This document shows, piece after piece, positions 1,014 to 61,336 of a stretch of DNA of 64,000 nucleotides. Every line of letters starts with the position of its first letter. The first letter of the stretch is position 1. The stretch is from Dysidea avara. Lineage: Eukaryota > Porifera > Demospongiae > Dictyoceratida > Dysideidae. The position numbers were made by a program, and so were the translations under genes. Location: the NCBI RefSeq assembly GCF_963678975.1, contig NC_089279.1, positions 34,663,297-34,727,296 on the forward strand, read 5' to 3'. Below the pieces are notes generated by a model. It was not told the DNA's origin. It searched no databases and worked only from the letters and a program-made list of their open reading frames with translations.

Positions 1014-1065
<52 letters not shown>

Positions 1066-8482: not shown

Positions 8483-8538
<56 letters not shown>

Positions 8539-8668: not shown

Positions 8669-8728
<60 letters not shown>

Positions 8729-34550: not shown

Positions 34551-34817
34551 ATAAATACTTTAGGATTAAGGAAGAAAATCCATCCCTCCTGGAGGAGACT
34601 GAGTGTGGCCCCGACTAGACATTGGGTGACCTGCAGTTCGATTCCTGGGGTTGGAGGGATTTTTTTCCTTACTTTGGCCCCTTTTCTGTTACACCTTTTC
34701 AGCTATAAGTCACTAAGTCTAAGTCCTTGAAATTAGGTTAGGTAATCCTAAGACTGCAGCACATGTTGCTGTCAGACCTTCAGTGCTAGTCACTGTAAAG
34801 CATTAATACAATACAAT
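34551..34817 (+). mobile_element. tRNA-derived SINE, full-length second monomer
   Basis: Starts TTTAGGATTAAGGAAGAAAA, with the tRNA-like head including GAGTGTGGCCCCGACTAGAC and the B box near 34640, then the same body and tail as the first monomer. The junction between the monomers is the same as at the minus-strand locus 51294-51640. Confidence 0.8.
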
Positions 34818-35590
34818 ACCACCTAGGAAATTATGGCATGTAATTATATTTTGTTCAATGCCATAGCAGGGATTTTCCCACAGAGCTATGTTGTAATACC
34901 TTCATTCATCTCTTCTTTCACTACTTTTTATCGCTTGGATCTCTATTTCATTCTAAATTAATAATTTTTAATGTACTAGTTTGTTAAGTTATAGCTATAC
35001 AGCTATGATGTGCACATGCGACAGTTGTATTAGAATTTCGAACGTGGCTGTTGTATTAGGGTGACTGCTTTATTAGAGTATATGATATGATTTTGTAACC
35101 AACATAATTATGCTTACTTTAAGTACTATTTGTGCATTAAGTTGGCAACTAAAATGCCTTTGTTTTGTCTTTGAGGTCAATCTTATCAGTAGAACTCTCA
35201 GTATATGCAAATTTCCACTCATGTTTATGAGTGCATGGCTTAATTTTGTAAATTATCATGTACAATTGCAATTTCAAAATTAATGATTATACAATGAATA
35301 TTGATTGTACAAGTGCTCGTGATCATGGATAACATGCAGAGAATAGGAAAGCAAAGCTACCTTTATTTTAAGCTGTTCATGTGTGTTTTTTACACTTTCA
35401 TAATATTGAATGAAATAATTATTTAGTAGCCTAGGTTTTAAATACACTGGACCACTTAATTGTGTAGGTATTAACAATATAATTATGCCCAAAAAGCAAG
35501 GCCAAGAATGCACAAGTAACTGATCGTGCTATACTGTGACCAAAATGTGTGATATCAATTTCTAGCCAAGAAAGGATTAGATATGATGTA
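34818..35590. other. Intergenic, no gene seen
   Basis: AT-rich, with one TTATTAGAGTA motif near 35068. No family recognised. Confidence 0.5.
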
Positions 35591-41037: not shown

Positions 41038-42026
41038 AAGTGATATAGTCTATATATCACTCAAGGCACACTCACCTGATAGGTGAAAAGAACTACATGA
41101 GCACTCACTCCATTTGTTTTATACACTAGCATCTGATGCATGATCGATTGTGGTTTCAATAGCATGGGCAAATAGCTCTCAGAATGTTATTCCTGCATAT
41201 TTACTTTGTATACTGAGTGAATTGCATGATATCATTTATGAACAACTCTTAACTAAACTCACTACATGTGTAACTATACTGTGTAGAGCTGTTATGTTCT
41301 GTGTATGTGCCTAGCCAGTAACTTGATGTTTTTTGAATGAGTAGCTATATATAGCCCTTCAGTACAAAGTTTAATGTTTAACTTTTTATCTCCACTTAGA
41401 GCAGGTATCAGTAGTAGTGTAAGCTTAGACTTATTGGTGGTTTTCTAACATCTGTACTAATTTAACATGTGCTAGTCAATCTTATCAGTAACTTTCAGGC
41501 TCTTGTCAGTGCCCATTCATGTTGTTGCTCAAAATGTTTGTGATATATGTATATATGTGCTCAGCAATATGAGAGCAAAGATTTCCTTAATCTTGAAGGC
41601 TTGGCCACTTGATGACTGTTGCAGTTGCACTTTCATAAGGTTAAAACTCTCTCTCATAATCAACTCACGTCTATAATATTGGTATATATAGCAGTACACA
41701 ATTCAGTGATCCACTATATTTAAAAACAAAGCTACCTAAATTTCATTTATAATATCCTTTCCCATGTTATTAACTCTTGCCAGAATATATTTTATAGTTA
41801 TACAAGGGACAAAGCTGCCCAGAGAAATTAGGGGGCCCAGTTAAACAGGGGCCCCAGGGGCAAGGAAGGGTTCCACTCTGAATCACAACTTCAGCCTAAC
41901 AAAGACCCAAAAAAGAAAGGTCATTACATGCTGACAATGACAATAGCTTCTCCCCACCAATCGTATCTCCTTATTTATAACTTGCTACACTACCTCTCTG
42001 AAGAATACTGTGACTACTCTATAGAC

Positions 42027-45000
42027 AGTGTTGGGCAAGTTACTTTGTAAAAGTAATTAGTTACATATTACATAATTATTACTTGCAACTGAACTATTTA
42101 GTTACAGTTACATATTACCCATAAAATAAAGTAACTATAATAATATTACATATTATATTACTTTGTGTCCACAGCCTTAAGCTGTCACGTGTGAAACTAC
42201 CACCTTATCACGTGACATGATTGCGTTGTTGGACAATGTGCAAATCTTGGTTATAAGTAAGAAGCTGGTGAATAAGCTTCATTCAGTAGGCTTCATTACT
42301 TCGTTGTGGCTAGGCGTTACTCAGCGGATTACTAACGAGATTAGTAACTTCGTTACTTGTAGTAATAATATTACGTAATATTAAATTCGTTACAGTAACT
42401 ATATTACTTAGGTAGGGTCCGCAAACCAAAAAATCTATACCTTCAAATCGACTTACAGACTATATAGTCATGTGTAGGAGTAGGTCTAATCAAGAAAACA
42501 CTAGAGCGGCAGAAAATTTTGTCCATGTCTTCTAGCGAAAATAACGCGAAATACCTTGAATTCGATCGATTTTTCGCCGTCGTAATTTACAATGTCATTC
42601 TTTTGGTCCAAAACTCTCTCTCAAGCTTTGAGAAGTTGTCCACTCTTACTTTGGAGTATAGGTAGTTTAATATAATTAATTAATATTTGGTAGTGGCGTC
42701 GCGCGCATCGTCGATCGGGGAAAAAAAAGACGTTTCGTGATCTGGAGCAGAGCAGACTTGCAGGAAATACTGCAACATTTACTGCAGTGATCACCTCCAA
42801 GTCAAGTACCTGTGTGCCGAATATGGTGTGGATTGAAGTTTGTTGACCATCTGGCTGAGACCAGCCTCGCCTGATTTAGCAAAAATTCCTCCGCGATCCA
42901 ACAAATATTGCAGTCTCGTGCACATAAGCACCTTTAAGTGTGTTGAATTATGGAAATGATTACTCAGTACAAGCACAAACTTCCAGCGAAGGCTAGATTA
43001 CGAACACTTTATTCAATTACGGCATGCGAAACGCGATTTATTGCACAAAACCAAGGCTCTCGTAACCAATATGTAATTTTACAAAAATATTGTGAAATAT
43101 ACTTGACAACTACTCTGAGTACAGTTAAATAAACATGTTTGTGATTGTTAATTAATTTCAGTGACATTATGTATAAAAAAACAATTTCTGACTGTTCTAT
43201 GGGAATATCTGACTGCTCTATTGGAGAGTTTCCTTCATGCAAGTTATACATATTATAGCTATGTAGCGTTGGTATAAATTGACCTATATAATTAATTTTA
43301 ATGCTGGCATATTGCATGCTATAGTAAAATCATTGTGCCTTTTTCTGAAAATCTTCTTCCTCATATATACTCAACATGGTTAAAGGTATAGTCTAGACAT
43401 AACATATAGCATTTTCATTTTGATATGCAATTTACTATTTGGTATGTATAATACTGATCCTATACTTATGCATGATGGGGGCAGTATTAGCAACAATTAT
43501 AGTAACTATCAAAAGCAGAAACCAAGGGTTTGCTCCAATTCCATAGTTGATGGTAGGGAAGAGTGGCTCTGCTGACTACTGTGAGGATATGTAAAATAAA
43601 ATCAAAAGTTGAGATATACGCCTAAAAGCAATCTACAAGACAACAGTTTAATGTACGTACATATTTGTATATCCTATCTGTGTGGGCCACTCTTATACAT
43701 TCCATGTAATGTTCCAAGCTACTAAAATTCTACCACAAAAACTTCAAAATCAGGACCCATGCAGTGCAGGACAAATTTTCAACTATTTGAATTTTGTGAA
43801 CAGATCTATATTAGTATGACAAAGTCATTGTGATAATTACTCTAAATTCAGTGACATGTGACTACATGCTCTTATTAAATGTTGATCTAATCCATTATAA
43901 CTATGTCAATTTTAAGTTCCAGTAAATCATCCAATGGGCATCTCATATAACAATTAAAATCAAAATTTCTTCCAAATCACAAATAACTAAACTTCATTTT
44001 TAGAGATTTTGTGTCATGGAAGTAACACTATGTTTTTAATGTCTTGCACAGGATAGACATGATTGAGACTGAATAAGTTGTAATTGGTACTTTGGTACAA
44101 AATTAGCTACCAGGAAACATCACGGCTTTGTATGATAGTTTTCCATGCAGATGTGATTTCAAGGCAATGAAAAACTTGTCTGGGGAGCATACCATTTGAC
44201 CTTGCATGCTACTGCATCTGAGTATCACATAAAAATAGATGATCAGATAATTATAAGCTCTAATTTAACTATCAAAAATTTAGGTGTGCATGATTATAAC
44301 TATGCTGCATGACCTGCATAGCTATAGCTATATAAATCTGGCCATGCACTCAAGCTAGACCTCTGGACTCCATCCTTGCTACAGGAATGATTATCTTACT
44401 GTCCTCACAGTGATTTATAATCATATCAAGTCAGTAACATTATGCTGAATTCCGTGAACTTTCATTACAAGAATTTTAGTTTTGCACCGGAAATAAATTG
44501 CATTATCGGCTAACTGTAAAATTTTCCGTCAGTAATCAAGCCATTGCTGTTAGTTTATACTTGCTCTGAGCAATCATTTCCATACTTCAGCACACCTAAA
44601 GGTGTTAATTAGCACGAAACTGCAGTATTTGTTGGATCGTGGAGGAAATTTTCGCTAAATCGGGCGAGGCTGAGACGGTCTCAGCCAGATGGTCAACAAA
44701 CTTCAATCCACACCATATTCGGCACACAGGTACTTGACTTGGAGGTGATCACTGCAGTAAATGTTGCAGTATTTCCTGTAAGTCTACTGTGCTCCAGATC
44801 ACGAAGCGTGTTTTTTTCCCGATCGGCGATGCGCGCGACGCCACTACCAAATATTAATTAATTATATTAAACTACCTATACTCCAAAGTAAGAGTGGACA
44901 ACTTCTCAAAGCTTGAGAGAGAGTTTTGGCTCAAAAGAATAACATTGTAAATTACGACGGCGAAAAATCGATCGAATTCAAGGTATTTCGCGTTATTTTC

Positions 45001-45258
45001 GCTAGAAGACATGGACGAAATTTGCTGCCACTCTAGTGTTTTCTTGATTAGACCTACCCCTACACATGACGTGACTATAGTTTGTAAGTCGATTTGAAGA
45101 TATCAATTTTTTGGTTTGCGGATCCTAACTTAGGTAACGCGTTACATTTGTAAGTAAAGTATCTTGAGTTATATTACCTGTTTTTATAGCGTATTTCGTT
45201 ATATTACTTAGTTACCACAAAAGTAATAATATTACGTAACGCGTTACTCCCAACACTG
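42027..45258. mobile_element. hAT-like element with 8-bp duplication, carrying a nested insertion
   Basis: Ends CAGTGTTGGGCAAGTTACTT and, reversed, CAGTGTTGGGAGTAACGCGT, flanked by TCTATAGA at 42019-42026 and 45259-45266. Without the nested element (42413-45127 and one copy of its 7-bp duplication) only about 510 bp remain, similar to the 604-bp family member at 17786-18389. No transposase. Confidence 0.85.
42413..45127. mobile_element. Long-inverted-repeat element, TAGGGTCCGC ends, 7-bp duplication
   Basis: A 2,715-bp element starting TAGGGTCCGCAAACC and ending GGTTTGCGGATCCTA, flanked by ACTTAGG at 42406-42412 and 45128-45134. The terminal arms are about 545 bp (42413-42961 and 44572-45127) and nearly identical. 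The centre (42962-44571) is AT-rich with CTCTATTGGAG-like motifs near 43200 and no recognisable protein. The ends and parts of the arms (CCATCTGGCTGAG) are shared with the foldback starting at 46575. Confidence 0.85.
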
Positions 45259-45715: not shown

Positions 45716-46432
45716 AACATACCTGTGAGCATATCGTGACACAATGGTGACGTCATATCCACAGGAATAAGCACCTCTTATCTGGAACATTTATGAATAG
45801 GCGCTTGCAAGAGCGCCAGCATCAGGGTGTGGGAGAGAAATACTCGAAGGAGTAAGGCTTAGTTAGAGACTGAAGGATCATAAAGAAACAAGTTGACTGA
45901 ATTGCACGCGGACTGGTATAGTAACAGGGTGAGTTTTTAGTATTCGATATCTGTGTAGAGAAAATCTATGGTAAAACCATAGATAAAAGGGATAGGAAAC
46001 GCAAGCGATTTCCGGTTTGATTTCCGTTACGCGTGACTTGAAAGGACAAGACAGTTTTGTGCTCAAGCATGGGAATCAGTGTTCTAAGCAGTGTAAATAG
46101 TAGGCTGTTGATATTTAGCCGGTCATTGCAATTTTAAAAAAACTTAGAAGAAATCGTGACGCAAAAAGGTTTAAGAAACGAAGAAAAAAAGTGTGTCGTG
46201 ACCTAGACTCGAACTCACACATTCAGGTTTACAGTACCAACGCTTTACCACTGTACCACCGGTGCTTGCTGGCTACTCCTTTTGTTTTTGTACTATTTAA
46301 TGTTACAAATATAAAATACTATATAGTCTAACTATACCAGTGAAAAAGAAACCAAAGCTGAACCCGACCCTAACCCTAACGCTAACCTGACGTTTGCCTG
46401 TTAAACGTAATGATGACTTTCACTGCCTGTGT
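45716..46432. other. Intergenic with tRNA-like and telomere-like strings
   Basis: No gene. It includes ATCTATGGT/ACCATAGAT as a 9-bp hairpin near 45967, the tRNA-like segment described separately, and ACCCTAACCCTAACGCTAACC near 46367-46387, which is too short to be a telomere. Confidence 0.5.
46185..46268 (-). ncRNA. tRNA-like Pol III segment (degenerate, probably SINE head)
   Basis: On the minus strand: GGTGGTACAGTGGTAAAGCG (A-box-like), then GAGTTCGAGTCTAGG (B-box-like), then CACGACACAC and a T run that could terminate Pol III. The acceptor and T stems do not pair well and position 33 is not U, so it is not a functional tRNA. Confidence 0.45.
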
Positions 46433-46540
46433 GAAGGTAAGTTTTTGGGTGAGTTCGAGGCGAGCTAGGGTTGGCCCGGCTTCGCCGGGACGCTCGCTCC
46501 AACCCTAGCTCGCCTCGAACTCACCCAAAAACTTACCTTC
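46433..46540. repeat. Perfect 42-bp stem hairpin with nested loop hairpin
   Basis: 46433-46474 is the exact complement of 46499-46540 (GAAGGTAAGTTTTTGGGTGA and onward). The 24-bp loop contains CCCGGCTTCGCCGGG, itself a hairpin. Confidence 0.9.
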
Positions 46541-46574
46541 ATACAACTAGTGTGTTTGATACTAGAGTTATAGG

Positions 46575-48776
46575 TAGGGTCCGCAACGTGAAATTTCGAC
46601 CTCTGAGAATCAACTACCAAACTACCCACAAATGCTAGGCTAGGTACCACTTAGAAAATGCCAGATTGGCGTTATTTTTCATTAATGTCTTGTCGTGTAA
46701 ATCGGTGAAAATGCTTACAAATTACGAGATTTTTTGCTATATCTTCAAGGAAATGTCTTTTAAAGCTACAATACGCACTCTCAATCTTTCTTACTAACTG
46801 TACTCTAAACTAAAACCATCAGTGGCTGCATTTTCTGGAGCAATTTCCAGCCGCAGCATCGCGAAAATGAAATTTCGGACTCAAAAAACGTTTCGATGCC
46901 ATTGGAGCACACAGTAGCGATGCCAAAGTAACCCTCCCAAGTCAAACTGGTCTGGCATGGGTCCAACTACTACCACACCAAATATTATCGAACTCCAAAA
47001 TTGTTTGCCATCTGGCTGAGCTCGACGGCTGTCAAAAATTCGTCAAAAATACCGATTTTATTAACTGACGGGAACTTTTGCTAGCCAGATGTGCTAGTTT
47101 ACTTCTCAAAAGCTTGCTAGACCCATAGCCAGTAGCTTTCATTTATAGGGTTGGTCTGGCAGCTCTTCTAGCGACCTCAAAAACTGCCAAATGCCGCTAT
47201 CCACGAATTTTGCCGATATCGATCAATTTACAATGCGTTAAAGAAATCTTGCACATCAAACATGATGCTTTTCCTCTCTAAAGTCATGTCGCATCCTTGT
47301 TTAGTTATATTCGTCCATAGGATGGCACTGGCGGCCTTCTTATCGAGGCCAAAATCCATCAAAATGCCCATCTCACCATTTGTCATCAGTTTTAGGAAGT
47401 TTTACAAGTCAAACATGCTGGTTTGCCTCTCTACATCTTTACTGGATGTTTCAATCACCTTCGTCTGTGTAGGCACCTTTCTTCAGTCTCTTGAAAATGT
47501 CAGAGCACGCCAATTGGGCAAAACCATCAACACTACTTACTGCTTATTTTGTTTCATTGATTCCACGAAAATACAGCAGAAATATTACATAACCCAACTG
47601 GAGTTAGTCTAGTTTTAAACATCCACCCTTCGGAACTCTACAAGAATGAAAACTTCAATTGTGGTTTTTGATAATCGGAATTTGCATTTCGGTAATCATT
47701 TGTATAAACCTGTAGAGTACAATATTTAGAGCTAGACTAACTCCATTTCCGTTCTATTACATTTCTGCTGGTTTTCCTGTCATTTTTCGTGGAACCAATG
47801 AAACAAAATAAGCATTAACTTGTATTGATGGTTGCGCCAAATTGGCATGCTGACGTTTTCAAGAGACTGAAGAAAGGTGCCTACACAGGCGAAGGTGATT
47901 GAATGGTCTAGCAAGGATGTAGAGAGGTAAACCAGCATGTTTGACATGTAAAACTTCCTAAAACTGATGACAAATGGTGAGATGGGCATTTTGATGGATT
48001 TTGGCCTCGATAAGAGAGCCTCCAGTGCCACCATGCCACCCCATGGACGAATATAACTAAACAAGGATGTAACATGACTTTAGAGAGGCAAAGCATCATG
48101 TTTGATGTGCAAGATTTCTTTACCACATTGTGAATTGGTCGATATCGGCAAAATTCATAGATAGCGGCATTTGGCAGTTTTTGAGGTCGCTAGAAGAGCT
48201 GCCAGACCAACCCTATGAATGAAAGCTACTGGTTATGGGTCTAGCAAGCTTTTGAGAAGTAAACTAACACATCTGGCTAGCAAAAGTTCCCGTCAGTGAA
48301 TAAAATTGGTATTTCGACGAATTTTTGACAGCCGTCGAGCTCAGCCAGATGGCAAACAATTTTGGAATTCGATGATATTTGGTGTGGTAGTAGTTGGACC
48401 CATGCCAGACCAGTTTGACCTGGGAGGGTTACTTTGGCATTGCTACTGTGTGCTCCAATGGCATCGAAACTTATTTCGAGTCCGAAAATTCATTTTCGCG
48501 ATGCTGCGGCTGGAAATTGCTCCAGAAAACACAGCCACTGATGGTTTTAGTTTAGAGTACAGTTAGTAAGAAAGGTTGAGAGTGCATATTGTAGCTTTAA
48601 AAGACATTTCCTTGAAGATATAGCAAAAAATCTCGTAATTTGTAAGTATATTCGCCGATTTGCACGACAAGACATTAATGAAAAATAACGCCAATCTGGC
48701 ATTTTCTAAGTGGTACCTAGCCTAGCATTTGTGGGTGGTTTGGTAGTTGATTCTTGGAGGTCGAAATTTCACGTTG
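46575..48776. mobile_element. Giant foldback, TAGGGTCCGC family, split at its right terminus
   Basis: Arms of about 1.04 kb (46575-47612 and 47727-48776) are near-identical reverse complements around a loop of about 115 bp. The left end is TAGGGTCCGCAACGTG, preceded by TTATAGG (46568-46574). The right arm stops at CACGTTG, lacking the last 10 bp. GCGGACCCTA followed by TTATAGG occurs at 61320-61336, so the element seems to have been opened by a 12.5-kb composite insertion. Frames at 47262-47612 and 47780-48064 encode similar peptides only because the arms mirror each other. Confidence 0.85.
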
Positions 48777-48912
48777 ATATATGTTTCCCCGGGTAACGTG
48801 TTTCCCACACACATATCCCTAGGGATCCGTGTTTCCCCGCACACATATCACTAACTCGCTAGCGACCTACAAGTCACAGTGATATGTGTTTCCCCGGGTA
48901 ATATGTTTCCCC
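48777..48912. repeat. GTTTCCCC repeat block, left
   Basis: Starts ATATATGTTTCCCCGGGTAA and contains CACATATCCCTAGGGATCCG type units. Reverse complement of the block at 53396-53606. From 48913 to about 49180 nothing is recognised. Confidence 0.8.
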
Positions 48913-49179
48913 TTTATAAAGTCATGTGCAACGTACGTAGTGTTAGCATAGGGCGCACATGCACTTTTAATAATCATAGCTAGCCATACCTATACAACTA
49001 GATAAATACTATAAGTATACATGTTGATGGAGGAAATTAAGCTATTCACTGGTATTCAACTATAACTGCTAAACTGTGCTGTGATTTGGCTATGTAGCTA
49101 TAGCATCAGTTTAATAAAACAGTAGCTACAAGTACCTGTATACAATAAAATACTATCTCTAGCTATATACAGCTTTGGA

Positions 49180-49945
49180 GGCTACTATCTTAATGGTGTC
49201 TCATTGGATTCAGTTAATTGTCATAAGGACTTGGGTATTATATTTGATGCGAATTTAAAGTTCCACCAACACGCTTCTGAAGTAGCTATGAAAGCGAACA
49301 GGGTATTGGTTTGTATGAAAAGAAGCTTTATCGATTTTAATGAATTTGTACTATCACGGTTGTACAAATCAATGGTTCGACCAATATTAGAATACGGAAA
49401 TGTAATTTGGGGACCCCATTATGTATTAGATCAACGTAAACTTGAGGGTGTGCAACGGCGTGCTACAAAACTAGTACCATCTTTAAGAGACAAGTCTTAC
49501 ATAGATCGACTGACATCAATGAATTTACCATCTCTTTTGTACAGGCACAGACGTGGTGACTTAATATTTCTTTTCAAGATGTTGAACAATTACTTCAATC
49601 TGGATCACTCCAACTTTTTTACTTTCTCCCACAATATACAAACTAGAGGTCACGCATATAAATTACTTAAGCCCCCTGCCCACATTTCATGTCGGGTCAA
49701 CTATTTTGGTACTAGAGTAATTAATGATTGGAACAATCTTACGAGTGATATTGTAGGAAATTCTTTATTAAATAATTTTAAATCAGCTATAGATAATTAC
49801 TTTTATGACTATAGATTTATTAATTATATTCATAGTTAATTTATGTTCATTGCATCTAATTTATGTATGTATATGTATGTAATTGAATGGGTGTACAGGC
49901 TTCTAAGTCTCAACCCAAATCAAATCATAATCATAATCATATAGA
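49180..49945 (+). mobile_element. 5'-truncated LINE, same family as 24915-29567
   Basis: The plus frame 49204-49839 encodes the end of ORF2: SVNCHKDLGIIFDANLKFHQ, RPILEYGNVIWGPHYVLDQ, LPSLLYRHRRGDLIFLF, RVINDWNNL. It shares these with the 25012-27990 ORF2. It keeps the Arg codon where that copy has a stop. A 3' region follows with an (ATA/ATC)n tail at 49919-49940. Confidence 0.85.
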
Positions 49946-50010
49946 GTAAATCATGTGGTTGCAGCTATGCATAACTAATCAATGTAGCTACAGCTTTGGC
50001 ATGCAGTCAG

Positions 50011-50200
50011 TCATTATCTACCCCCTTGCCGGTTCTATCTGGGGTTCCCCAAGGGAGTATTTTGGGACTCCTATACACTTCATTATTTACATGAATGATT
50101 TACCATCTTGTGTTACCATCAGTAAAACTTTACTATTCATTGACGACACCAAGATTCATAATACTGTTAGATATTTCACTGTTTCAAAATGATTTAGACT
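50011..50200 (+). pseudogene. Degenerate RT fragment
   Basis: In shifting frames the sequence reads LSGVPQGSILG-like, then FIIYMNDLPSCVTISKTLLF and a degraded catalytic IDDTK. It is a small relic of a LINE reverse transcriptase. Confidence 0.65.
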
Positions 50201-50257
50201 CAGCAACTTTGTGGAGTACGAGATAGAATATGTTCTTTAATCCAAAAAAGAGTGTCC

Positions 50258-51292
50258 ACCTATATTTATTATTATTATTATTATTATTATTGCTTTATGG
50301 TGTAAACACACCAAAGGTCTGTTGGTAACATGTACCAACAGCCGCGAAAGTACATTACATTACATTACTTATTTACCTACTTACTTACTTACTTATATAC
50401 ACACATACATACAGATTCTACAAGTAGTTCAGGTTTGAGGTGGGTGGACGTGACTGGTGGCATCTTGAGCAAGGACAGAGATAGTGCAATGAGCAATTGT
50501 TGTTATCTTCAAAGTTAGTTATAAAATGATCCCAGAGAAAAGTTTTTAGTTTTGATTTTAGCAGAGGAAACGTTAGATCCAAGTTAAGGATAGGCATGGC
50601 ATTCCAGAGAGTTGGTAATCTATGGAAATAAGAATGTCTAGATACGTTATTTAAATGATGAGGGATGATCAATTTGTTGCTGGTGCCGGATCTAGTATTA
50701 GCTGAGCTGAAGTTGATATGATCATGAATATTGAACTGTTTAGATTGTACCTTGATTGATTTGATTGCAAATAATATATCTTGTAACTCGAACAGGTACA
50801 TCAGAGGAAGGATCCTTAGTTTTACTAGACGGGTTTTGTAACTACTGGTGTAGTCATTTAATAGATACTTAGTGGCACGGCGCTGGATTTGCTCGAGAGT
50901 TAAAATGTCTTTCATCAGGTGTGGACGCCATAGTTGGGTGCAATAGAGCAGCTGAGATCGAACCATTGAAATATATAATGTGACCAATGTAGAAGTAGAA
51001 TGGGTAGAAGCAATAGTACGACGTATTAGTCCCAATACCTTGTATGCACGAGCAGAGATTGATTTGTAGTGTTTGTCCCAACTTAGATTCTCAGATAATA
51101 TGAGCCCTAAGTCCTTGTGTGAGTCATTATGTGGTATAGTAATTTCCGAAATGGTGTAGGTGGTTTCTAACTTGCATTTAAATGATAAATGTACGAATTT
51201 TTTTAGATTAAAATTCAGATCTGTCTCTCTGGACCAAGTAAATAAAGCGATGATATCTTCTTGCAGAGCGATGTAGTCGTTATTAACACTTT
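50258..51292 (-). mobile_element. 5'-truncated LINE, minus strand
   Basis: The minus strand encodes the end of ORF2 (TDLNFNLKKFVHLSFKCKLE and SHKDLGLILSENLSWDKHYK upstream, then frame 51035-50418 with LEQIQRRATKYLLNDYTSSY and RLPTLWNAM). A (TAAG)n and (AATAAT)n tail lies at 50258-50400. It is related to the LINE at 53607-54989. The 5' side abuts a SINE. Confidence 0.8.
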
Positions 51293-51293
51293 A

Positions 51294-51538
51294 CAGTGAC
51301 CAGCACTGAAGGTCTACAACAACATGTGCTGCAGCCTTAGGATTACCTAACCTAGTTTCAAGGACTTAGACTTAATGACTTATACAGTAGCTGGAAAGGT
51401 GTAACAGAAAAGGGGCCAAAGTAAGGAAAAAAATCCCTCCAACCCCAGGAATCGAACTGCAGGTCACCCAATGTCTAGTCGGGGCCGCACTCAGTCTTCC
51501 TCCAGGAGGGATGGATTTTCTTCCTTAATCCTAAGGTA
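51294..51538 (-). mobile_element. tRNA-derived SINE, full monomer, minus strand
   Basis: Minus-strand copy of the SINE at 34551-34817. The B box appears on the plus strand as GGAATCGAAC near 51450, the 5' head at 51538, and the tail TTACAGTGACCAGC at 51294. Confidence 0.8.
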
Positions 51539-51640
51539 TTTATTATTAACACTTTACAGTGACCAGCACTGAAGGTCTACAACAACATGTGCTGCAGCCT
51601 TAGGATTACCTAACCTAGTTTCAAGGACTTAGACTTTATA
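51539..51640 (-). mobile_element. tRNA-derived SINE, 3' part of adjoining monomer
   Basis: Repeats the 3' end of the SINE (TTACAGTGACCAGCACTGAA to CAAGGACTTAGACTT), joined tail to head with the full monomer exactly as at 34550. Confidence 0.75.
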
Positions 51641-51914
51641 TTAATGCAAAAGTCATCACTATAATTACAAAATAGCTGACACACAGGTTTTAACAAATAG
51701 TTCACATAAAAATCTCGGTATTATAATATCATCAGACCTATCTGGGGATCAACACTACAAAAACATAATCCCTAAGACCTACAGAATGCTAGAACTGCTC
51801 CATCGCAGCTTTAGCAAGCATCAAACAGTGACAGCCAAGAGAACTTTGTATATTTCCTTAGTGAGATCGCAAGTTATATACTGTTCAGTGATTTGGAAAC
51901 CTAACCATATCAAG
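51641..51914 (+). pseudogene. LINE RT fragment, left half
   Basis: The plus strand encodes NLGIIISSDLSGDQHYKNII, YRMLELLHRSF and LVRSQVIYCSVIWKPNHIK. It is interrupted at 51914 by the element 51915-53118 and resumes at 53119. Confidence 0.75.
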
Positions 51915-53118
51915 CAGGGGCGGATCCAGGGGGGGGGGGCTTTGGCCCCCCTTCATATTTAGGCTTTACTTGATCAATATGCTGAAAATTATAATGAAAT
52001 TTTGTCTTAGCATAATTATATGATCACTAATAATACAAATACTCATAGAACCACCTTATAAACATCTTTCCAAGGTATTATCAGTGGATTTATGCTAAAG
52101 TTTATGCGACAAGGACCTGGATCAGCATTGAAGGTGTACAAGATCGAGATACTCTAATAGAGCAGTCAGCTAACTACTCTAATAGAACATTCACTGGAAA
52201 CATGTAGTTGGTTCTGTTATGAAATTTTTCCAAATCTGCCTGCACCTATACATACAATGAAGTGCATTGGTCTGTTTAAAGGGCTTCATTCATTCACTTG
52301 TGTAGTTAATATGTGAGACAATACTTAATTCAGGTACACAATTTCCATTGAAAATGCTGCAGATTCAAACTTGTATTGTTCAAATTTCAAAATTTTCCAC
52401 TTTCAACATTATTCTAGCATGCACCTATTCAGTGTTGTGCAATTGTGGGAGGGGTGCATCATGTACTTGGTTGTCTGTACCTACCCAAACTTTTCCATTA
52501 GCAAAATACTTCAGAGAGCCATACCTATAATCTAAAGGCAGTTGTCATGAAGCCGAGTAGTTCTAGCTATTCGATGCGGCGCTTCAGTTCTCAATACTCA
52601 GTTTAGCACACTCAATTGCAGACTAAATTTTGCACACAGATAGAGTATTTATACAAGCTGTAGTGCTAAGGTCAGCAAAAGGTCAACTACACAAGCTTAC
52701 AAAGAGAGTTAATTACCTGTACAAAACTAGAACAATAAAGAGACAGAGATATGTCAAAACAACCTACTGATAACTTACAAAAATAACAACAAAGACAGGA
52801 TTAGGTAAAAACACCTGGCTAATTACACTAATAAGCTACAAAAAGTAATTATGTATGCATACAAAGAGATAATTAATGTTAATTAAGTATGAAGTCATAG
52901 CTGTTTACAGCCTGCTTCTTCACAGCAGTACATATAATCTACAAGCAGAAAATATTATGAATTTTATGTGGGAATGTCTCCAAATTGCAGTATTTTAGCA
53001 TCTATTTTTCAAAATTTCCTGGGGGGGCATGCCCCCAGACCCCCTAGTTCCAACACTCTACCCAAGAGATTAGTACCTTGAGTTAGTCCCCCTTTTATAA
53101 ATCCTATATCCGCCCCTG
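51915..53118. mobile_element. CAGGGG-ended element with 5-bp duplication TCAAG
   Basis: A 1,204-bp element with ends CAGGGGCGGATCCAGGGG and, reversed, CAGGGGCGGATATAGGATTT, flanked by TCAAG at 51910-51914 and 53119-53123. It is a reverse-orientation relative of 9976-11084, from which it differs by an extra segment of about 380 bp (roughly 52547-52935). It contains the CTCTAATAGAG motif pair near 52152-52185. Confidence 0.9.
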
Positions 53119-53200
53119 TCAAGGACATCACACTTATTGAGCAGGTCCAGAGAAGAGCAACAAAGTTTATTTTAAATGACTATAGTTCTGATTATTAGTA
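53119..53200 (+). pseudogene. LINE RT fragment, right half
   Basis: Continues the frame broken at 51914: KDITLIEQVQRRATKFILND then YSSDY and a stop. From 53201 to 53395 the sequence is AT-rich with repeated TAGCTA and nothing else. Confidence 0.75.
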
Positions 53201-53395
53201 TAGCTAGCTAGTATAATTATTGTATTAGCTTATATAGTAGCTATATAGCTAGTTAGCTAACTATAGCTAAATACATGCAATATGCGTGGTGTCTATTAGC
53301 TAGATAGCAATATATCTACTGAATGGTTGGATCGCGTACTGTTTGCAACTAGCCATATAGACCTTGGAGTTACTGCACGATGGCTATATCTGAGT

Positions 53396-53606
53396 GGGAA
53401 ACACGGATCCCTGGTGATATATGTGCGGGGAAACACGAATCCCTAGGGATATGTGTGTGCGGTGAAATATTTTAAAAATCGCTACGGGAAACACATCACT
53501 GACAGCTTTTGGTGGGAAACACGGATCCCTAGTGATATGTGTGCGGGGAAACACGGATCCCTAGGGATATGTGTGCGGGAAACATGTTACCCGGGGAAAC
53601 ATATAT
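53396..53606. repeat. GTTTCCC repeat block, right (33-bp units)
   Basis: Four 33-bp units of the type GGGAAACACGGATCCCTAGG then GATATGTGTGCGG, starting at about 53396, 53429, 53511 and 53544, ending GGGGAAACATATAT. Each unit carries the 12-bp palindrome ATCCCTAGGGAT or a variant. Inverted relative to 48777-48912. Confidence 0.8.
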
Positions 53607-54989
53607 AATAATAATAATTAACTTTACAGTGTACATATACCTATATACATACAAGTTGCAGATGTTGGTATGATAGAATTGGGACATATGGCAGCACACT
53701 GATGGTCCACTGACATCCTGTGTCAGTGGCCGGAAGCTAAATTGTAGTAGTGATTAGCTACAAAGTTTACTTACTAGTCTAAGATTACTTGAAGGGGGGG
53801 GAATTAACAGTTAAAGGGAGTTGAAGTTAGGTTGGTGAGGGATCTTTGAACACTTTGAGCATGGACATAGAAATGAAAAAGAGCAGGTGTTGTTGGAGGT
53901 GAAATTGGCAGTGAAAGATTCCACAGATAATCTAAGAGTTTAGCCTTTATCTTGAGTAGGTTGTCCTGGTAGTTGATAACCGGAAGGGCATTCCAGATGC
54001 GAGGAAGCCGGTTAAAATAAAAGTTACTAGTGGAATTGTCAGGTGATCTTGTTTGGAGTAGCTTGTTTCCAGAAGCTAGACGTGTGTGACCAGTTGCAAA
54101 TTTAATGAAATTGATGTCAAATCCATTGTGGGGGTTGTGGAGATTTTTAAGAAAGAACATCACATCATTTACATCAAGAATGTACATTAGGGGTAGCATA
54201 TGGAGATTAATAAGACGAGACTTGTAGTCAGTAGAGTAATCATTTAGAATGTATTTAGTTGCACGCCTCTGAACACGTTCGAGTTGCTGAATGTGCTTAA
54301 TTAGGTGGGGTTTCCAGATGACCGACCAGTAGAAAAACTGGGATCTAACAAGAGAGGTATATAGTCGAGATTTGGCTTGGACATAATTTTGTATGGAGAA
54401 AGATCTTCTTAGAAGTCCAAGTACCTGATAGGATTTGGAGATAATGTGGTTATAGTGAGCATCCCATGACAGGTCGCTTGATAACATAATTCCTAGATCT
54501 TTGTATGTATCAACACAAGAAATCTGGGAGGTGCCGATATTGTAAGATGTTGGAGATTTCCTTTTAAAAGATAGCAGAAAGATTTTTGATAGACCGAATA
54601 GAAGATTCCCCAAAAGTTTAAATTATTTAAGTCTTCTTGAAGTTTAAGTGAATCTAGTGGTAAGGAGATAGTTTTGATGCATTTGGTGTCGTCTGCAAAT
54701 AGAAACAATAGACAAAATTTAATGATGTCCGGAATATCATTAACATATATGAGAAATAGAAGTGGGCCAAGTATACTTCCCTGTGGGATTCCGGATAGAA
54801 CTGGGAGAAAGTGAGACAAAGAGTTGTTAATCTTCACACACTGATAACGATTAAGTAGGTGTGATTCAAACCATGACCAAAGCTTGCCAGAAATTCCAAG
54901 TGATCGAAGTTTGAATAACAGTTCCTTGTGGGGGACACTGTCAAAAGCCTTTTTGAAGTCAAGATAGACTACATCAGTTTGGTCATTAG
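53607..54989 (-). mobile_element. LINE, 3' part (broken by a BEL/Pao insertion)
   Basis: Minus-strand RT: DVVYLDFKKAFDSVPHKELL, SGIPQGSILGPLLFLIYVND and LFADDTKCI, in the frame that begins at the retrotransposon junction. A frameshift near 54620 follows; then 54613-53804 carries the thumb and C-terminal region (YKDLGIMLSSDLSWDAHY, RLPRIWNALPVI). The 3' tail is (AAT)n at 53607-53622. The upstream part of the same RT is at 61010-61319. Confidence 0.85.
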
Positions 54990-55206
54990 TATCATGGCTG
55001 ATCCACGTTACAGCAGATTCACAACAGCGGCAAGCAGGAGGGCCGACGATTGAACAGATAAAGGACAACGTGTCACACACTACTCATCGCGTACGAAAGA
55101 CATGGCATACAGAGACACATTACAGTATACGCATGCGCATAACCTAAGGCCTAAAATACAATAAGGAAATACAATAATGAATATACTATAAAGTCAGTTC
55201 ATGACA
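54990..55206 (-). repeat. BEL/Pao 3' LTR
   Basis: 217 bp, starting TGTCATGAACTGACTTTATA on the minus strand. It differs from the other LTR at two transitions (near 54993 and 55056). The polyprotein stop at 55194 lies inside it. Confidence 0.95.
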
Positions 55207-58200
55207 TCCTCCGGGCCACGCAAGATCTGGGCCCAATCTGAGACTTGTGCTCTAGCCTTAACTGCTGCTGACCGTTGAGGTCGTGAGGGCAATTGGGGTT
55301 CAGTATCATGAGGTACCGGTGTATCTGGAGTACTGTCATCCAATATATCTTGAGAGTCTGGCGTTTCTGTTTCTACATTCACTTCCAATGGATAAAGTTT
55401 GATGATAGGTCTATTCGTAATTCCATTTACAGTGCGAATAACAGCTGATCTTACTGCATTATCATGCCCTCGCTGTAGTTCCTTCACCACTGCCAATTGC
55501 CATTTCAATCTAGGAACATCATCATGTACAATGACTATATCGCCAACCTTGATTCTTTCCTTGTTTGTACCATTATTGACAGTGTGAGTTTCTCTGAGAG
55601 ATGTCAGGTATTCCCTCTTCCATCGATTCCAGAAATGTTGGATTATTAGTGCCTGGGCCTTTGCTTTCTTGCTGAGAGTGTTGTGTAACTTAGAGCCAAC
55701 TTCTTGGTAGTTCTCGTCAATCACTTCATCTTTGGCAGCGAGAGAGTGTGGCACAGTGTCAATAATCCTTCCATAGAGGAGATGGGAGGGCGTTAAGGGC
55801 TCTGGTTCATCTAAATCCGAACTAACATACGTCAGAGGTCGATTGTTGAGGTGAGCTTCAATTTCTACAACGATTGTTTGCAAGCTTGGTAGAGTAACGT
55901 AAGCACGACCAAGAGCTTTCTTGAGAACATTCTTTGTTAGTCCAATGAGGCGTTCCCAGTATCCACCATACCAGGGTGCACGACAAGGGATGAACTTCCA
56001 TTCTACTCCCTGTCTTCCTAAGCCTTCCTGTATGGTCCTGGATTCAAACAATGCTCTTAAATCCTCAGCGGCCGACATGAAGGTAGAAGCATTGTCAGAC
56101 ACAACAAGTTTTGGCAGGGACTTTCGGCTTGCAAATCGTCTGAAGGCTTGTAAAAATGTCTCTTCAGAGAGGTCAGTAACTACCTCTAGGTGCACTGCTC
56201 TACTACTTGCACAAGTGAACAAGCATATGTACACCTTAGATTCTCCTCCGGATGTTCGAACATACAGTGCTCCCGTAAAATCTATTCCGGTGACTGTGAA
56301 TGGGTTCATCATCTGCAACCTGTGCTTAGGAAGTGGAGGTGGGCTTGGAGCCTTGTAATGACTTCCAGACAATTTGTTACAAGTAACGCAGTGTCTCAAG
56401 ATACTTCTCACATGTCGCCTGGCTGCTGGTAGCCAATACATTTGTCTAAGGTATGTCACAGTGCTATTTGTGCCACTGTGGAAATGCCTTTGATGAATAT
56501 CTTGAATGATGAGTTCAGTGAGCCAGTGCTTCTGTGGCAACAGATAAGGGAACTTCACTTGTTGAGATACTGGGGCGTTATGTATCCTTCCCCCACAGCA
56601 GATAATGCCTTCGTTGTTTAGGTGAAGGCGTAGTTGACGTATTAGTGGCAAGCGAGATGCTTTGGACTGGAGATTGGCAATTTCATTACAGAAGGAATGT
56701 TGTTGGACAGACTTGATCAACAATACCTGTGCATAGCTGAGTTCAGTTGGAGTTAGATGTCCAGACAACTTTGGTAATGTTCGCTTAATGTTGGTTATGA
56801 AACGCAGTACGTAGGCTGTAATTCTAAGAAGTTTTGTCAGCTTGCTATATCTGGTGATGTCAATGATCTGGCCAAGTCCAGGCTTGAGAGTAGCAGGTGC
56901 ATCTGTAGCTGGGAGAGTTGGTTCGACTTCTTCATCATTGGTTTGGACATGGAGGACAGTGGTTGGAGACCATGTAGGCCAGTTAGATTGTGATGGTAAC
57001 CAAGGTGGACCATGGGACCATAATGTTGATGACTGTAACTGGGTTGAAGAGATTCCTCGGGTTAGGAGATCTGCAGCATTATCATCCGTATGACAATAAC
57101 CCCATACAGAAGTAGGAAATAAGAGGCAAATTTCTCTGACTCGATTGGCTACAAATGGCTTGAGCTGTTTCTTGCTAAAGATCCAATGCAGTGTGATTTG
57201 GCTGTCACTCCAAAGCTTGATCTTGATGGAGTCTAACTGGGGTTGTAGTGTAGAGTGAATGAATTCTGCAAGCTGCGCAGCTGTGACAGCTGCCTTCAAT
57301 TCAAGTCGAGGTAGTGTTGTGGTCTTCAGTGGTGAGACTCGTGATTTCGCCATAACAAAGTCAACTTGTCCTGCACTTTGCAGGTACGCTACAGCTCCAT
57401 ACGCTTTTGTACTCGCGTCAGCGAACACATGTAGGTAAACAGACTTGTTTGAAGACATGACAGAATACCTACGTGCCATTACCACACTTGCTGATTGTTC
57501 GACATCTGCTGCAACTTGAAACCATCTGTTGTTGAAGTCATCATCCAGGGGTTCGTCCCAGTTCACTTGCTTACGCCATAGTTCTTGTATCAGTAATTTA
57601 GCTCGTATGACTATTGGAGAGAGCCACCCAAGTGGGTCATATTGCTTTGATGCTGCTTGTAATATGTTGCGTTTGGTCATGACAGTGTTGTCATTTGTAA
57701 GTCGACGTTGTGAGAGTGCTAGAGTATCTGTGCAGGTGTTCCACTTCAGACCAAGAACACTAACTGTTGTGTCAGTGTCAAGTACTCCATCAGTTTGTGC
57801 TGTTGCTTGTAACTTGGGGCTATTGGATGCCCATGAACGCAAGTTGAAATGTGCAGTGGCCATGATGGATCTGGCATCAGTGTAGTAGCTTAAAATCTCT
57901 TCTTCTGTTTGGCATCCCGAGATTACATTGTCAACATATAGGTTGCGTTTAATGTCAGATGAAACTGGAGACTCGTACAGATCAAGATGACGGTGTAGAG
58001 TTGCACTTAACATGAACGGGGAGCTTGTGGACCCAAACAAGACTACCTTAAATCTGTATGTGGTGAACTGGCTCTCTGGATCATTAAGGTTTGATAACCA
58101 CAGAAATCTTGTGTAGTCTCTGTCCTGTTCGTCAAGTTTAACGTGGAGAAAAGCCTTTTCAATGTCGGTTGACAAGGCATACCGGTGTAAACGAAAGCGT

Positions 58201-60644
58201 AACAGTATCGCACACACATCAATTAAGGGTGTGTCACCAACCAATAGGCAATCATTGAGACTAGCATACTTTGGCGATTGACGACAACTGCAGTTGTATA
58301 CAATTCTCACCGGAGTTGTAGAGGAATTCTTGTACACCGGATGGTGCGGTATGTAATGAACTCCAGTGGTGGGTTGGTCACTCTCAGTAGGTGCACGCTC
58401 AATGAATTGACGTTGTTCTTGTTCAGTGATGATGTTACCGTAAAGCTGAAGCATAGTTGGATGGTATCCAAGCTTTCTAGCAAGTGCACGTGTTTGCCGT
58501 TCACAGATTGCCCGATTAGAAGGGAGGAAAGGATGGTTTGGTCTCCATGGGAAACGAACTACATAGTATCCATCCTTGTCATGTGATATATGGTCCCTCT
58601 GATACATTGCCATGAATGGTTCAGGTGATATGTCAGTAGAATGTTCCACAGGTGTGGGAGTGTCTGAGCTAGTGTCAGGAGATGAATCAGTACAATCACA
58701 AAACTCGAGATTAACTGCTAGAGTTGTGTAAGCATGAGTGACATGGGGTTCTGATTGCCTAGGAAGTGGCCCTGAAAGTAGATATCCAAGCTTGGATTCC
58801 ATGGCAGTTGGACCCGTACCCCTGACAATGTGATTGCCCATGATCTCCCAATAATGGTTAACACCAATTAACAATGAAATCTGAAATTTTTGTGTAAAGC
58901 CAATAGGATGGGCCAACTTCAAGTCCCGCAAATAAGGAAGGCTGTGTAAAGTTGAGTTAACAAAGTTTTGAACAGGTGCTGCTATCTGGGGTACAACTAA
59001 AGCTGAAATTGCGATGTCACCAACATTGGTTTCGAGCATGAACCTGATTGTGTCAACCTGGTACTTAGAGGTAGTTTCACCACCAAAGCATGATATACTC
59101 AAGTTTTCTCTATGGTGGGGGCGCAAGTCCAACTTATCAGCTAAAGTCTGTGTTACAAAGGACCGTTGAGCCCCTTCATCAAACAATATATTTGCGGATA
59201 CCCTGTGGTTGTCAGCTCTAACAAACGCTACAGCGGTTTTCAAAAGACAGGCTGGACTAGAATCTCGGTTGCCAATCAGGGGCTGTGTAGCTGTAGTAAG
59301 GCCAGCAACTGGCTGAGTTGGAACAAAACTCTGTGATGTTGGATTCAACGTACTTGGCAATGTCTGAGAGGATTGTGGGGGCTGTGGATTGTTCTGTGTG
59401 GTAGGGTTTGTTTGGGTTGCACTAGGTGTGCTTTCCATTCCACACAAGCTACTGTGGTGCTTCTTATGACATCCCCTGCACCTATTCTTTGAGTTGCAAT
59501 TAACAGCCTTGTGGTTTCCCAAACAATTAAAGCACAGCCGTTCCTTCTTCACTATATCCAATCGCACCTTTACATCAGTTACCACATTACAGTACACAGC
59601 ACTATGTTGTCCCTTACAATACACACATATTGGTTTTGCACTCACTGATCTCTTCTCGCCTGTTGAGTGTCCTTTTCGCACACCCATGAAAAAGGATCCA
59701 GTGACACTGGATTGACTATGATCATCACGACTTTCCTGACCAGATTCTAGAATAGTAATCTCTCGTTCAATTCCAGTACGAAGTTCATCAATATCCCACT
59801 GATCTGAGGTGTGATTCCGAGTGAGATTCCTGATTACAACTGGTGGCAGTTTCCCTAAAATCAGAGAGACTAACAAATCTCCATAGGTGTCCTTGCTCTT
59901 CCCCAATGATTCCAAACCTCTTATGTGGCTTTCGACAGTGTCATACAAGTGCCTTAGACTAGATGCAGTATTGGAAGTGTCGGGTAAATTCAATAACGCT
60001 TTCATGTGTGCATTTATGATTTTCTGTTTCTTTCCGAATCTGGCTTCCAGTAGAGAGATGGACTGTTCATAATTGGCACTGGTCAAAGTAAATCCGCTGA
60101 CAGTTCTGGATGCTTCACCCTCTAGTAATGATCGCAAGTAGTTAAATTTCTCAATGCCTGTGAGTTTGGGGTTTGAGTGGACAGCTGATTGGAAGGAGTC
60201 CCAAAATGTTTGCCATACAAGCGGGTCTCCAGAAAACTTCGGCAAGTCGAGCTTGGGTAATCGACTGGCGGGTGCAGATTGAACTATGGACTCTCTTGAT
60301 GCAGAGTTAAGGGGAGTGACTGGTGAGACAGCTGTGGTATTGTTCTTCTCTAAATATCGCTTCAAACGTGTCAACTTCTCTATTAAGGTGTCTTGGATTT
60401 CTATGGTCTCAAAGGTGTCTCGTTCTGAATCATCAGCTCCTTCAATCATGGACTGTATTTTCACATCGAGTTGCTGCAATGATTCAGCCTTGCGGTTCAA
60501 CTGGTCAATGTATGACATAACTAAACTAATAGTGTCTTCAGTAGCGGGTTGCGTCAGGTCTAGTTCTTCTATCTTGCCATAGATGCGCGTTAAGTGTGCG
60601 CGGTACGCTTTGCGGGATCCCTTTAACTTGTCCATTCCCTCCAT
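55194..60644 (-). CDS. BEL/Pao Gag-Pol polyprotein
   Basis: 1,816 codons from ATG 60644, uninterrupted. Domains in order: a DUF1759-type Gag core (about 128-300, LPKLDLPKFSGDPLVWQTFW); CCHC-type knuckles CVYCKGQHSAVYC (340-352), CFNCLGNHKAVNC (371-383) and a third Cys/His group to 401; an aspartic protease region (about 485-620) with FDEGAQRSF where DTG/DSG is usual; reverse transcriptase with STDIEKAF (825-832) and YVDN (903-906); RNase H (FADAS 1074, LELKA 1114, SDSQ 1146, ADLLTRG 1190); an HHCC finger (about 1384-1422); an integrase core with D1455, D1517 and E1564; and a DUF5641-like C-terminus (about 1660-1755, KVGDIVIVHDDVPRLKW). Products form particles and copy and insert the element. 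The YVDN and DEG variants are departures from the commonest motifs. Strong family call. Confidence 0.95.
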   Translation of the reverse strand: MEGMDKLKGSRKAYRAHLTRIYGKIEELDLTQPATEDTISLVMSYIDQLNRKAESLQQLDVKIQSMIEGADDSERDTFETIEIQDTLIEKLTRLKRYLEKNNTTAVSPVTPLNSASRESIVQSAPASRLPKLDLPKFSGDPLVWQTFWDSFQSAVHSNPKLTGIEKFNYLRSLLEGEASRTVSGFTLTSANYEQSISLLEARFGKKQKIINAHMKALLNLPDTSNTASSLRHLYDTVESHIRGLESLGKSKDTYGDLLVSLILGKLPPVVIRNLTRNHTSDQWDIDELRTGIEREITILESGQESRDDHSQSSVTGSFFMGVRKGHSTGEKRSVSAKPICVYCKGQHSAVYCNVVTDVKVRLDIVKKERLCFNCLGNHKAVNCNSKNRCRGCHKKHHSSLCGMESTPSATQTNPTTQNNPQPPQSSQTLPSTLNPTSQSFVPTQPVAGLTTATQPLIGNRDSSPACLLKTAVAFVRADNHRVSANILFDEGAQRSFVTQTLADKLDLRPHHRENLSISCFGGETTSKYQVDTIRFMLETNVGDIAISALVVPQIAAPVQNFVNSTLHSLPYLRDLKLAHPIGFTQKFQISLLIGVNHYWEIMGNHIVRGTGPTAMESKLGYLLSGPLPRQSEPHVTHAYTTLAVNLEFCDCTDSSPDTSSDTPTPVEHSTDISPEPFMAMYQRDHISHDKDGYYVVRFPWRPNHPFLPSNRAICERQTRALARKLGYHPTMLQLYGNIITEQEQRQFIERAPTESDQPTTGVHYIPHHPVYKNSSTTPVRIVYNCSCRQSPKYASLNDCLLVGDTPLIDVCAILLRFRLHRYALSTDIEKAFLHVKLDEQDRDYTRFLWLSNLNDPESQFTTYRFKVVLFGSTSSPFMLSATLHRHLDLYESPVSSDIKRNLYVDNVISGCQTEEEILSYYTDARSIMATAHFNLRSWASNSPKLQATAQTDGVLDTDTTVSVLGLKWNTCTDTLALSQRRLTNDNTVMTKRNILQAASKQYDPLGWLSPIVIRAKLLIQELWRKQVNWDEPLDDDFNNRWFQVAADVEQSASVVMARRYSVMSSNKSVYLHVFADASTKAYGAVAYLQSAGQVDFVMAKSRVSPLKTTTLPRLELKAAVTAAQLAEFIHSTLQPQLDSIKIKLWSDSQITLHWIFSKKQLKPFVANRVREICLLFPTSVWGYCHTDDNAADLLTRGISSTQLQSSTLWSHGPPWLPSQSNWPTWSPTTVLHVQTNDEEVEPTLPATDAPATLKPGLGQIIDITRYSKLTKLLRITAYVLRFITNIKRTLPKLSGHLTPTELSYAQVLLIKSVQQHSFCNEIANLQSKASRLPLIRQLRLHLNNEGIICCGGRIHNAPVSQQVKFPYLLPQKHWLTELIIQDIHQRHFHSGTNSTVTYLRQMYWLPAARRHVRSILRHCVTCNKLSGSHYKAPSPPPLPKHRLQMMNPFTVTGIDFTGALYVRTSGGESKVYICLFTCASSRAVHLEVVTDLSEETFLQAFRRFASRKSLPKLVVSDNASTFMSAAEDLRALFESRTIQEGLGRQGVEWKFIPCRAPWYGGYWERLIGLTKNVLKKALGRAYVTLPSLQTIVVEIEAHLNNRPLTYVSSDLDEPEPLTPSHLLYGRIIDTVPHSLAAKDEVIDENYQEVGSKLHNTLSKKAKAQALIIQHFWNRWKREYLTSLRETHTVNNGTNKERIKVGDIVIVHDDVPRLKWQLAVVKELQRGHDNAVRSAVIRTVNGITNRPIIKLYPLEVNVETETPDSQDILDDSTPDTPVPHDTEPQLPSRPQRSAAVKARAQVSDWAQILRGPEDVMN

Positions 60645-60775
60645 CCTGGTTTGCTGTAATAAAACACCAGAAAAGAAATGTTTACCAGTGAATTGGCTTG
60701 CCTTGACAGGTACCGTTATTCACTGCCACGGTACCACGACGTCTGCGGGGCGGGTTACAAAACAGCAAACCAATC

Positions 60776-60792
60776 CTGGTCACAGCACCAAA
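60776..60792 (-). promoter_or_regulatory. Primer-binding site of the BEL/Pao element
   Basis: On the minus strand, immediately inside the 5' LTR, the sequence reads ATTTGGTGCTGTGACCAGG. The TGG start fits pairing with a tRNA 3' CCA end. The primer tRNA was not identified. Confidence 0.7.
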
Positions 60793-61009
60793 TATCGTGG
60801 CTGATCCACGTTACAGCAGATTCACAACAGCGGCAAGCAGGAGGGCCGACGATTGAACGGATAAAGGACAACGTGTCACACACTACTCATCGCGTACGAA
60901 AGACATGGCATACAGAGACACATTACAGTATACGCATGCGCATAACCTAAGGCCTAAAATACAATAAGGAAATACAATAATGAATATACTATAAAGTCAG
61001 TTCATGACA
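60793..61009 (-). repeat. BEL/Pao 5' LTR
   Basis: 217 bp, identical to 54990-55206 apart from two transitions. It should contain the element promoter. Confidence 0.95.
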
Positions 61010-61319
61010 ATTAGTACTATGTATGGTGTTCAACATGAGAAGCAACTGTTGCACTATGGATCGATTTTTTAAGAAGCCAAACTGCTGAGGTGAGAGAAAA
61101 CTTGAAATGTAAGAAATGGTTTTGTTGTAAACTAGTTGTTCTAATACCTTAGATGTTATACAGAGTAGAGAAATTGGACGATAGTTAGTAACTTGAGTCT
61201 TGTCACCAGATTTATGTACAGGAACAATCGTGTGTATGCGCCATTCATAAGGTATGGAGCAACTATTTAAACTGATTGTAAACAAATGGTGCAATGGCTT
61301 AGTATATATCACTGTGACA
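61010..61319 (-). pseudogene. LINE RT, upstream part cut off by the BEL/Pao insertion
   Basis: The minus frame encodes HTIVPVHKSGDKTQVTNYRP, ISLLCITSKVLEQLVY and SPQQFGFLKNRS, the conserved front of the RT domain, running into the LTR at 61009. It joins the sequence at 54989. The LINE is 5'-truncated at about 61319, against the GCGGACCCTA terminus. Confidence 0.85.
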
Positions 61320-61336
61320 GCGGACCCTATTATAGG
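61320..61336. repeat. Orphan terminus and target duplication of the foldback at 46575
   Basis: GCGGACCCTA (61320-61329) is the exact complement of the foldback's first 10 bp. TTATAGG (61330-61336) repeats the 7 bp before 46575. Confidence 0.75.

Follow-up and report, generated by a model that had tools for sequence, protein, structure and literature searches.

Galileo, a transposon of the P superfamily in Drosophila, has long inverted terminal repeats, takes a foldback form and makes 7-bp target duplications. Nesting is on record for it as well, in a GalileoN copy that holds two insertions, one of them LINE-like (long interspersed nuclear element) (PMC2775673). The Tm1 Mutator/Foldback elements of Meloidogyne likewise have composite long inverted repeats, and some copies carry nested insertions (PMC3169594). 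Ginger1 DNA transposons begin with TGTNR, their inverted repeats measure 40-270 bp, and the target duplication is 4 bp long and in most cases CCGG (PMC2836005). We analyzed a 64,000-nucleotide stretch (the window) of the sponge Dysidea avara genome (assembly GCF_963678975.1, contig NC_089279.1, positions 34,663,297 to 34,727,296) and found in it FB1, a 2,211-bp foldback DNA transposon inserted with a 7-bp target duplication, whose right tip stands 12.5 kb away from its body. FB1 was very probably opened near this tip by a composite DNA transposon with inverted GTTTCCC arms and Ginger1-like ends (the GTTTCCC element), which was in turn entered by a LINE, and the LINE by a BEL/Pao retrotransposon. 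We give this full account, from FB1 to BEL/Pao, a probability of about 0.94.

The letters at both ends of FB1 were as the original prediction had described them. The foldback begins at 46575 (left junction ...GAGTTATAGG/TAGGGTCCGCAACGTG, the slash marking the junction), its right arm terminates in ...TTTCACGTTG at 48776, and the right tip with TTATAGG is found at 61320-61336. The 17-mer formed by the tip and the duplication, GCGGACCCTATTATAGG, has an expectation of 7.8e-7 per window under a third-order Markov model. Matches to the tip of at least 8/10 occurred at 12 positions on the two strands of the window, and the complete TTATAGG (7/7) followed the one at 61320 only. The similarity of the FB1 arms falls from 95-97% in the first bins at the tips to 79% toward the centre. 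A short palindrome (46421-46552, arms 93% complementary) adjoins FB1 on the left.

We searched the window's own assembly (550.8 Mb, 108 contigs) for further copies of the foldback. The tip TAGGGTCCGCAACG occurred 387 times on each strand and its reversed control on neither (0+0). From 100 listed places of the 774, we fetched the 28 plus/minus neighbour pairs lying no more than 8 kb apart, leaving aside one pair 14.3 kb apart and the single ends. All 28 pairs end in CGTTGCGGACCCTA by selection, and the flanking duplication and the alignment length were therefore taken as the informative tests. The 7-bp flanks were identical in 20 of the 28 pairs and differed by one mismatch in three and by two to five mismatches in five (L013, L014, L020, L022 and L037). 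The mismatched flanks of these five recall chimeric Galileo copies, and ectopic recombination is possible. The 23 matching flanks showed a WTAGG-like preference, unlike the GTAGTAC consensus reported for Galileo (PMC2775673). From the position counts of these flanks, calculated by hand, the chance that two unrelated foldback insertions share all seven bases is ~0.35%; the flank of L039 is coincidentally also TTATAGG.

Seven intact single-piece copies of 2,160-2,220 bp (L022, L023, L026, L028, L034, L038 and L039) aligned with the whole FB1 body at 90.6-93.3% identity, and each ran exactly 9 bp beyond the point where the body stops. The FB1 right arm thus lacks 9 bp, not the 10 bp proposed originally, and one G is duplicated, with one copy on each side of the insert. 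The prediction of a tip standing at a distance from its arm was otherwise correct, and the refuting condition set for it, intact copies with other ends, was not borne out by these seven copies. FB2, an intact related foldback in the window, served as a control for the FB1 ends. It ends in TAGGGTCCGC and GCGGATCCTA, and the first ~215 bp of its arm are related to those of the FB1 arm (best E 2.8e-11). The 7-bp target duplication expected of the P superfamily is exact in both FB1 and FB2. The host of the intact FB2 is an element at 42026-45258, which we take to be hAT-like by its ends (CAGTGTTGGG...CCCAACACTG, with the 8-bp duplication TCTATAGA). The coordinates of all features are collected in the table.

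Table. Components of the split foldback, with the control foldback FB2 (window coordinates; a dot marks features given without strand)
Feature	Position	Strand	Remark
FB1 left 7-bp target duplication TTATAGG	46568..46574	.	exact direct repeat of 61330-61336
FB1 body, ~1.05-kb inverted arms and short loop; right arm 9 bp short of tip	46575..48776	.	alignment with seven intact genome copies
GTTTCCC element and its inserts, ends Ginger1-like; lacks the outermost 10 bp and the duplication on the left	48777..53606	.	
LINE 3' fragment, private insert	49173..49938	+	in none of 22 GTTTCCC loci
LINE 3' fragment and SINE-like (short interspersed nuclear element) repeat, private insert	50270..51636	-	in none of 22 GTTTCCC loci
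CAGGGG element, cargo; 5-bp duplication TCAAG at 51910-51914 / 53119-53123	51915..53118	.	
382-bp insert in CAGGGG element, TG...CA ends, GCAGT both sides	52543..52924	.	in none of 22 GTTTCCC loci
5'-truncated LINE, (TTA)n tail on left, split by BEL/Pao; ATATAT both sides (one base play at 61303)	53607..61302	-	
BEL/Pao retrotransposon, 217-bp long terminal repeats (LTRs), duplication ATTAG 54985-54989 / 61010-61014	54990..61009	-	
GTTTCCC right terminus, TGTCACAGTGATATAT on - strand, severed by LINE	61304..61319	-	genome ends; not LINE
FB1 right tip GCGGACCCTA; first four bases probably the retained copy of a GCGG duplication	61320..61329	.	
FB1 right 7-bp target duplication TTATAGG	61330..61336	.	
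FB2, intact related foldback, ACTTAGG duplication both sides; control for FB1 ends	42413..45127	.	

The element that opened FB1 could be defined from its copies elsewhere in the genome, which run from TGTCACAGTG to CACTGTGACA and are flanked by a duplication of 4 bp, usually CCGG. In the window, its inverted arms (48777-48853 and 53530-53606) are 97% identical. Before the genome copies were examined, the inner repeat GTCACAGTGATATGTGTTTCCCC had hinted that TGTCACAGTGATATAT beside the foldback tip was the outer GTTTCCC end. The match is 9/10, a value attained by 10 of 127,991 ten-mers in the window, a count that includes the pair under comparison; the later genome copies, not this statistic, are the real evidence. 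The terminus GATATATGTTTCCCCGGGTAAC occurred at 258 places in the genome (120+138; reversed control 0), of which 20 were fetched. The proposed terminus was borne out because TGTCACAGT stood directly before GATATATG in 20/20 of these ends. In addition, all 20 showed a TGTCA terminus, and the adjoining 4-mers were CCGG (13), CCGC (3), GCGC (2), CCAG (1) and CAGG (1). The 4-bp duplication was exact in six of seven end pairs, the exception being L048/L049. We had also considered ATATAT as the duplication of this element, a candidate dropped in view of the TGTCACAGTG ends and GC-rich 4-bp duplications of the genome copies. The resemblance of FB1's own TTTCACGTTG to TGTCACAGTG (7/10) is equalled by 0.48% of the 10-mers in the window and was not used as evidence.

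At the right junction the sequence reads ACTGTGACA/GCGG/ACCCTA, and the duplication of the GTTTCCC element at the FB1 tip would therefore be GCGG, of which only the right copy remains. At the left junction CACGTTGCGG/TGTCACAGTGATATATG was expected. The observed sequence, CACGTTGATATATG, falls short of this by 13 bp, and a TG borders the gap on either side; the 13 bp were presumably lost by a later deletion.

Several observations weigh against the full account given above. The left GTTTCCC junction lacks a clean terminus and requires the later deletion, the LINE is flanked by no more than the short motif ATATAT in an AT-rich stretch, and the locus is known from assembly sequence alone. The target bias of the foldback makes an identical 7-mer less surprising than it would be at random sites (~0.35% by the count above). 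Furthermore, the five foldback pairs with mismatched flanks indicate that ends may be re-paired in the genome, and one of them, L022, is also among the seven copies used for the length of FB1. These pairs, and the hundreds of such ends in the genome, lend some weight to a first alternative: 61320-61336 could belong to another foldback insertion, or to a re-paired (chimeric) one, that deletion or ectopic recombination moved close to FB1. Chimeric Galileo copies with unlike 7-bp flanks have indeed been described (PMC3573991). However, the flanks of FB1 agree in all seven bases, and the other foldback would also have needed a cut within one base of the stop of the FB1 body. We regard such an origin of the tip as very unlikely.

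The boundary of the terminal LINE bears on a second alternative, in which FB1 was opened by the LINE, whose tail then received the GTTTCCC element at ATATAT. The palindromic ATATAT flanks GTTTCCC...GGGAAAC on both sides and could be read as its duplication. We used a 315-base query running from the FB1 tip (bases 1-10) into the LINE, and scored 40 of 116 candidate places. The full match was found at this locus only. The other 39 places began at query base 28 (61302) in 37 cases, at base 26 in one and at base 36 in one. Moreover, the 18 printed LINE copies (19 were fetched; the anchor match of L077 was inexact) all shared a different sequence upstream. The LINE therefore includes neither the FB1 tip nor the GTTTCCC terminus, and the possibility raised in the original prediction, that 61320-61336 matches by chance or belongs to a LINE consensus, was not borne out. 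The bases 61303-61319 are instead the terminus seen in 20/20 fetched GTTTCCC ends, and the GTTTCCC duplications are 4 bp long and GC-rich rather than ATATAT. Opening of FB1 by the LINE thus appears even less probable than a chimeric end. Chance resemblance or an assembly error is the least credible of all: although only the assembly documents the locus, the 17-mer is so rarely expected, and the ends that other copies show for these elements coincide with the junctions here.

The terminal LINE itself shows the features expected of a non-LTR retrotransposon: reverse transcriptase (RT; RVT_1 in two pieces), 5' truncation at 61302 and a (TTA)n tail. Its pieces are 96.5 to 99.7% identical to other copies. 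None of the 20 fetched GTTTCCC ends carried the terminal LINE with BEL/Pao. The BEL/Pao retrotransposon has two mismatches between its LTRs (99.1% identical over 217 bp), and Pfam searches with five separate pieces of it returned Pao peptidase, RT, integrase, DUF1759 and DUF5641. With peptidase, RT and integrase between the LTRs, and a 5-bp duplication, it shows no notable difference from described BEL/Pao elements. In 16 of 19 LINE copies the element is missing and the flanks of its site overlap by 5 bp; the overlap was 3 bp in L078, and L065 and L076 aligned uncleanly there. Comparison with these copies places the BEL/Pao element inside the LINE, as had been predicted along with the opening of the foldback.

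The original prediction had further held that everything between the two parts of FB1 accumulated inside it, which proved only partly correct. We compared 48777-53606 with 22 GTTTCCC loci, which correspond to ~13 elements when adjacent ends of opposite orientation are paired as one. The segments 48777-49172, 49939-50269, 51637-51914 and 53119-53606 recurred in other copies, with alignments of at least 300 bp showing 83.4 to 97.6% identity. RT relics detected by tblastn were among these recurring segments, at the same sites in the other copies. The CAGGGG site was filled in 14 loci (10 elements), that is, in 10 of 11 informative elements, and empty in two loci representing one element (L058/L081), with the 5-bp overlap TCAAG. 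Since further GTTTCCC copies have the CAGGGG element and the RT relics at matching positions, these arrived as cargo and predate the spread of the family. On this comparison of copies, the GTTTCCC family already included the CAGGGG element when this copy moved. Another CAGGGG element lies at 9976-11084, with the 5-bp duplication TGTAC.

Among the loci compared, three further inserts were private to this copy. The site of the LINE 3' fragment at 49173-49938 was empty in nine loci (seven elements), and that of the LINE/SINE-like block at 50270-51636 in eight loci (six elements); the repeat of the latter block is also present at 34360-34820. The site of the 382-bp insert in the CAGGGG element was empty in six loci with the 5-bp overlap GCAGT, and by its ends this insert is perhaps a solo LTR. 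Near both of its sides lies TATAATCTA, which we first took as the duplication and dropped on account of the GCAGT overlap at the empty sites. At three loci both flanks of a private insert were present with different sequence between them: ~370 bp at the first site in L057, ~635 bp at the second in L054, and ~3.7 kb at the third in L080.

Taken together, the insertions very probably proceeded as follows. FB1 inserted first, duplicating TTATAGG; its unfilled form would read 46575-48776, then CGGACCCTA and TTATAGG, with the right end in one piece as CACGTTGCGGACCCTA-TTATAGG. The composite GTTTCCC element, already carrying LINE relics and the CAGGGG element, then entered the FB1 tip, probably at GCGG. 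Its left end and the GCGG copy on that side would have been lost with 13 bp, perhaps by deletion between two TG dinucleotides. The LINE would next have inserted, presumably through target-primed reverse transcription, into the AT run of the right GTTTCCC terminus, and BEL/Pao finally entered the LINE. The two LINE/SINE blocks and the 382-bp insert may have entered this GTTTCCC copy either before or after its jump into FB1. Two steps of this order are secure: the cargo-bearing GTTTCCC element followed FB1, and BEL/Pao followed the LINE. The position of the terminal LINE across the GTTTCCC element's own terminal repeat suggests that it arrived after the jump. The ordered history originally proposed thus holds as a partial order and not as a full history. 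The divergences of FB1, the GTTTCCC element, the LINE and the BEL/Pao LTRs agree with this order but provide no clock.

Nesting of this kind is common, and this case is unusually well resolved. A split transposon can be recognized by a distant tip together with its target duplication. The content of an insertion, however, need not postdate the insertion: genome copies separated cargo from private arrivals here, which nesting alone could not have done.

Regarding classification, the TAGGGTCCGC foldbacks could belong to the P superfamily, as a large lineage akin to Galileo but not confined to flies' genomes as Galileo is to those of Drosophila, and GTTTCCC elements could be non-autonomous relatives of Ginger1 that multiplied with the CAGGGG element and LINE relics as cargo; we consider this joint assignment tentative and rather doubtful. 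The foldbacks yielded no P-type transposase in the ORFs (open reading frames) scanned, namely eight of FB2 (three weak matches below cut-off only) and 10 of the 20 listed for eight foldback loci (those from L013, L020, L024, L033 and L037). They differ from Tm1 in their 7-bp duplications, as opposed to mostly 9 bp in Tm1 (PMC3169594). The GTTTCCC element resembles Ginger1 in its termini, in its inverted repeats of at least 77 bp and in its mostly CCGG target. However, the minority targets CCGT/ACGG given for Ginger1 (PMC2836005) differ from those found here (CCGC, GCGC, and a single case each of CCAG and CAGG). Seven ORFs of two GTTTCCC copies (L080 and L081, of 16 sought) contained no integrase-like or other transposase.

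In viral contigs, the 16-base tip pattern matched three stretches once each, with no inverted pair (201 bases of one stretch examined); the GTTTCCC repeat gave no match, and the LINE matched two stretches, none confirmed. Two scans of prokaryote genome contigs returned none, as did Rfam at gathering thresholds and ARAGORN. RT stretches were also observed inside the foldbacks L020, L024 and L037, so that LINE-bearing foldbacks are not unique to the FB1 locus. Elsewhere in the window, a large inverted repeat spans 391-8895, with perfectly complementary arms of 1,142 nt (1007-2148 and 7400-8541), and inverted pairs of long repeats at 13830-15160 and 29862-32228 are 91-95% complementary.

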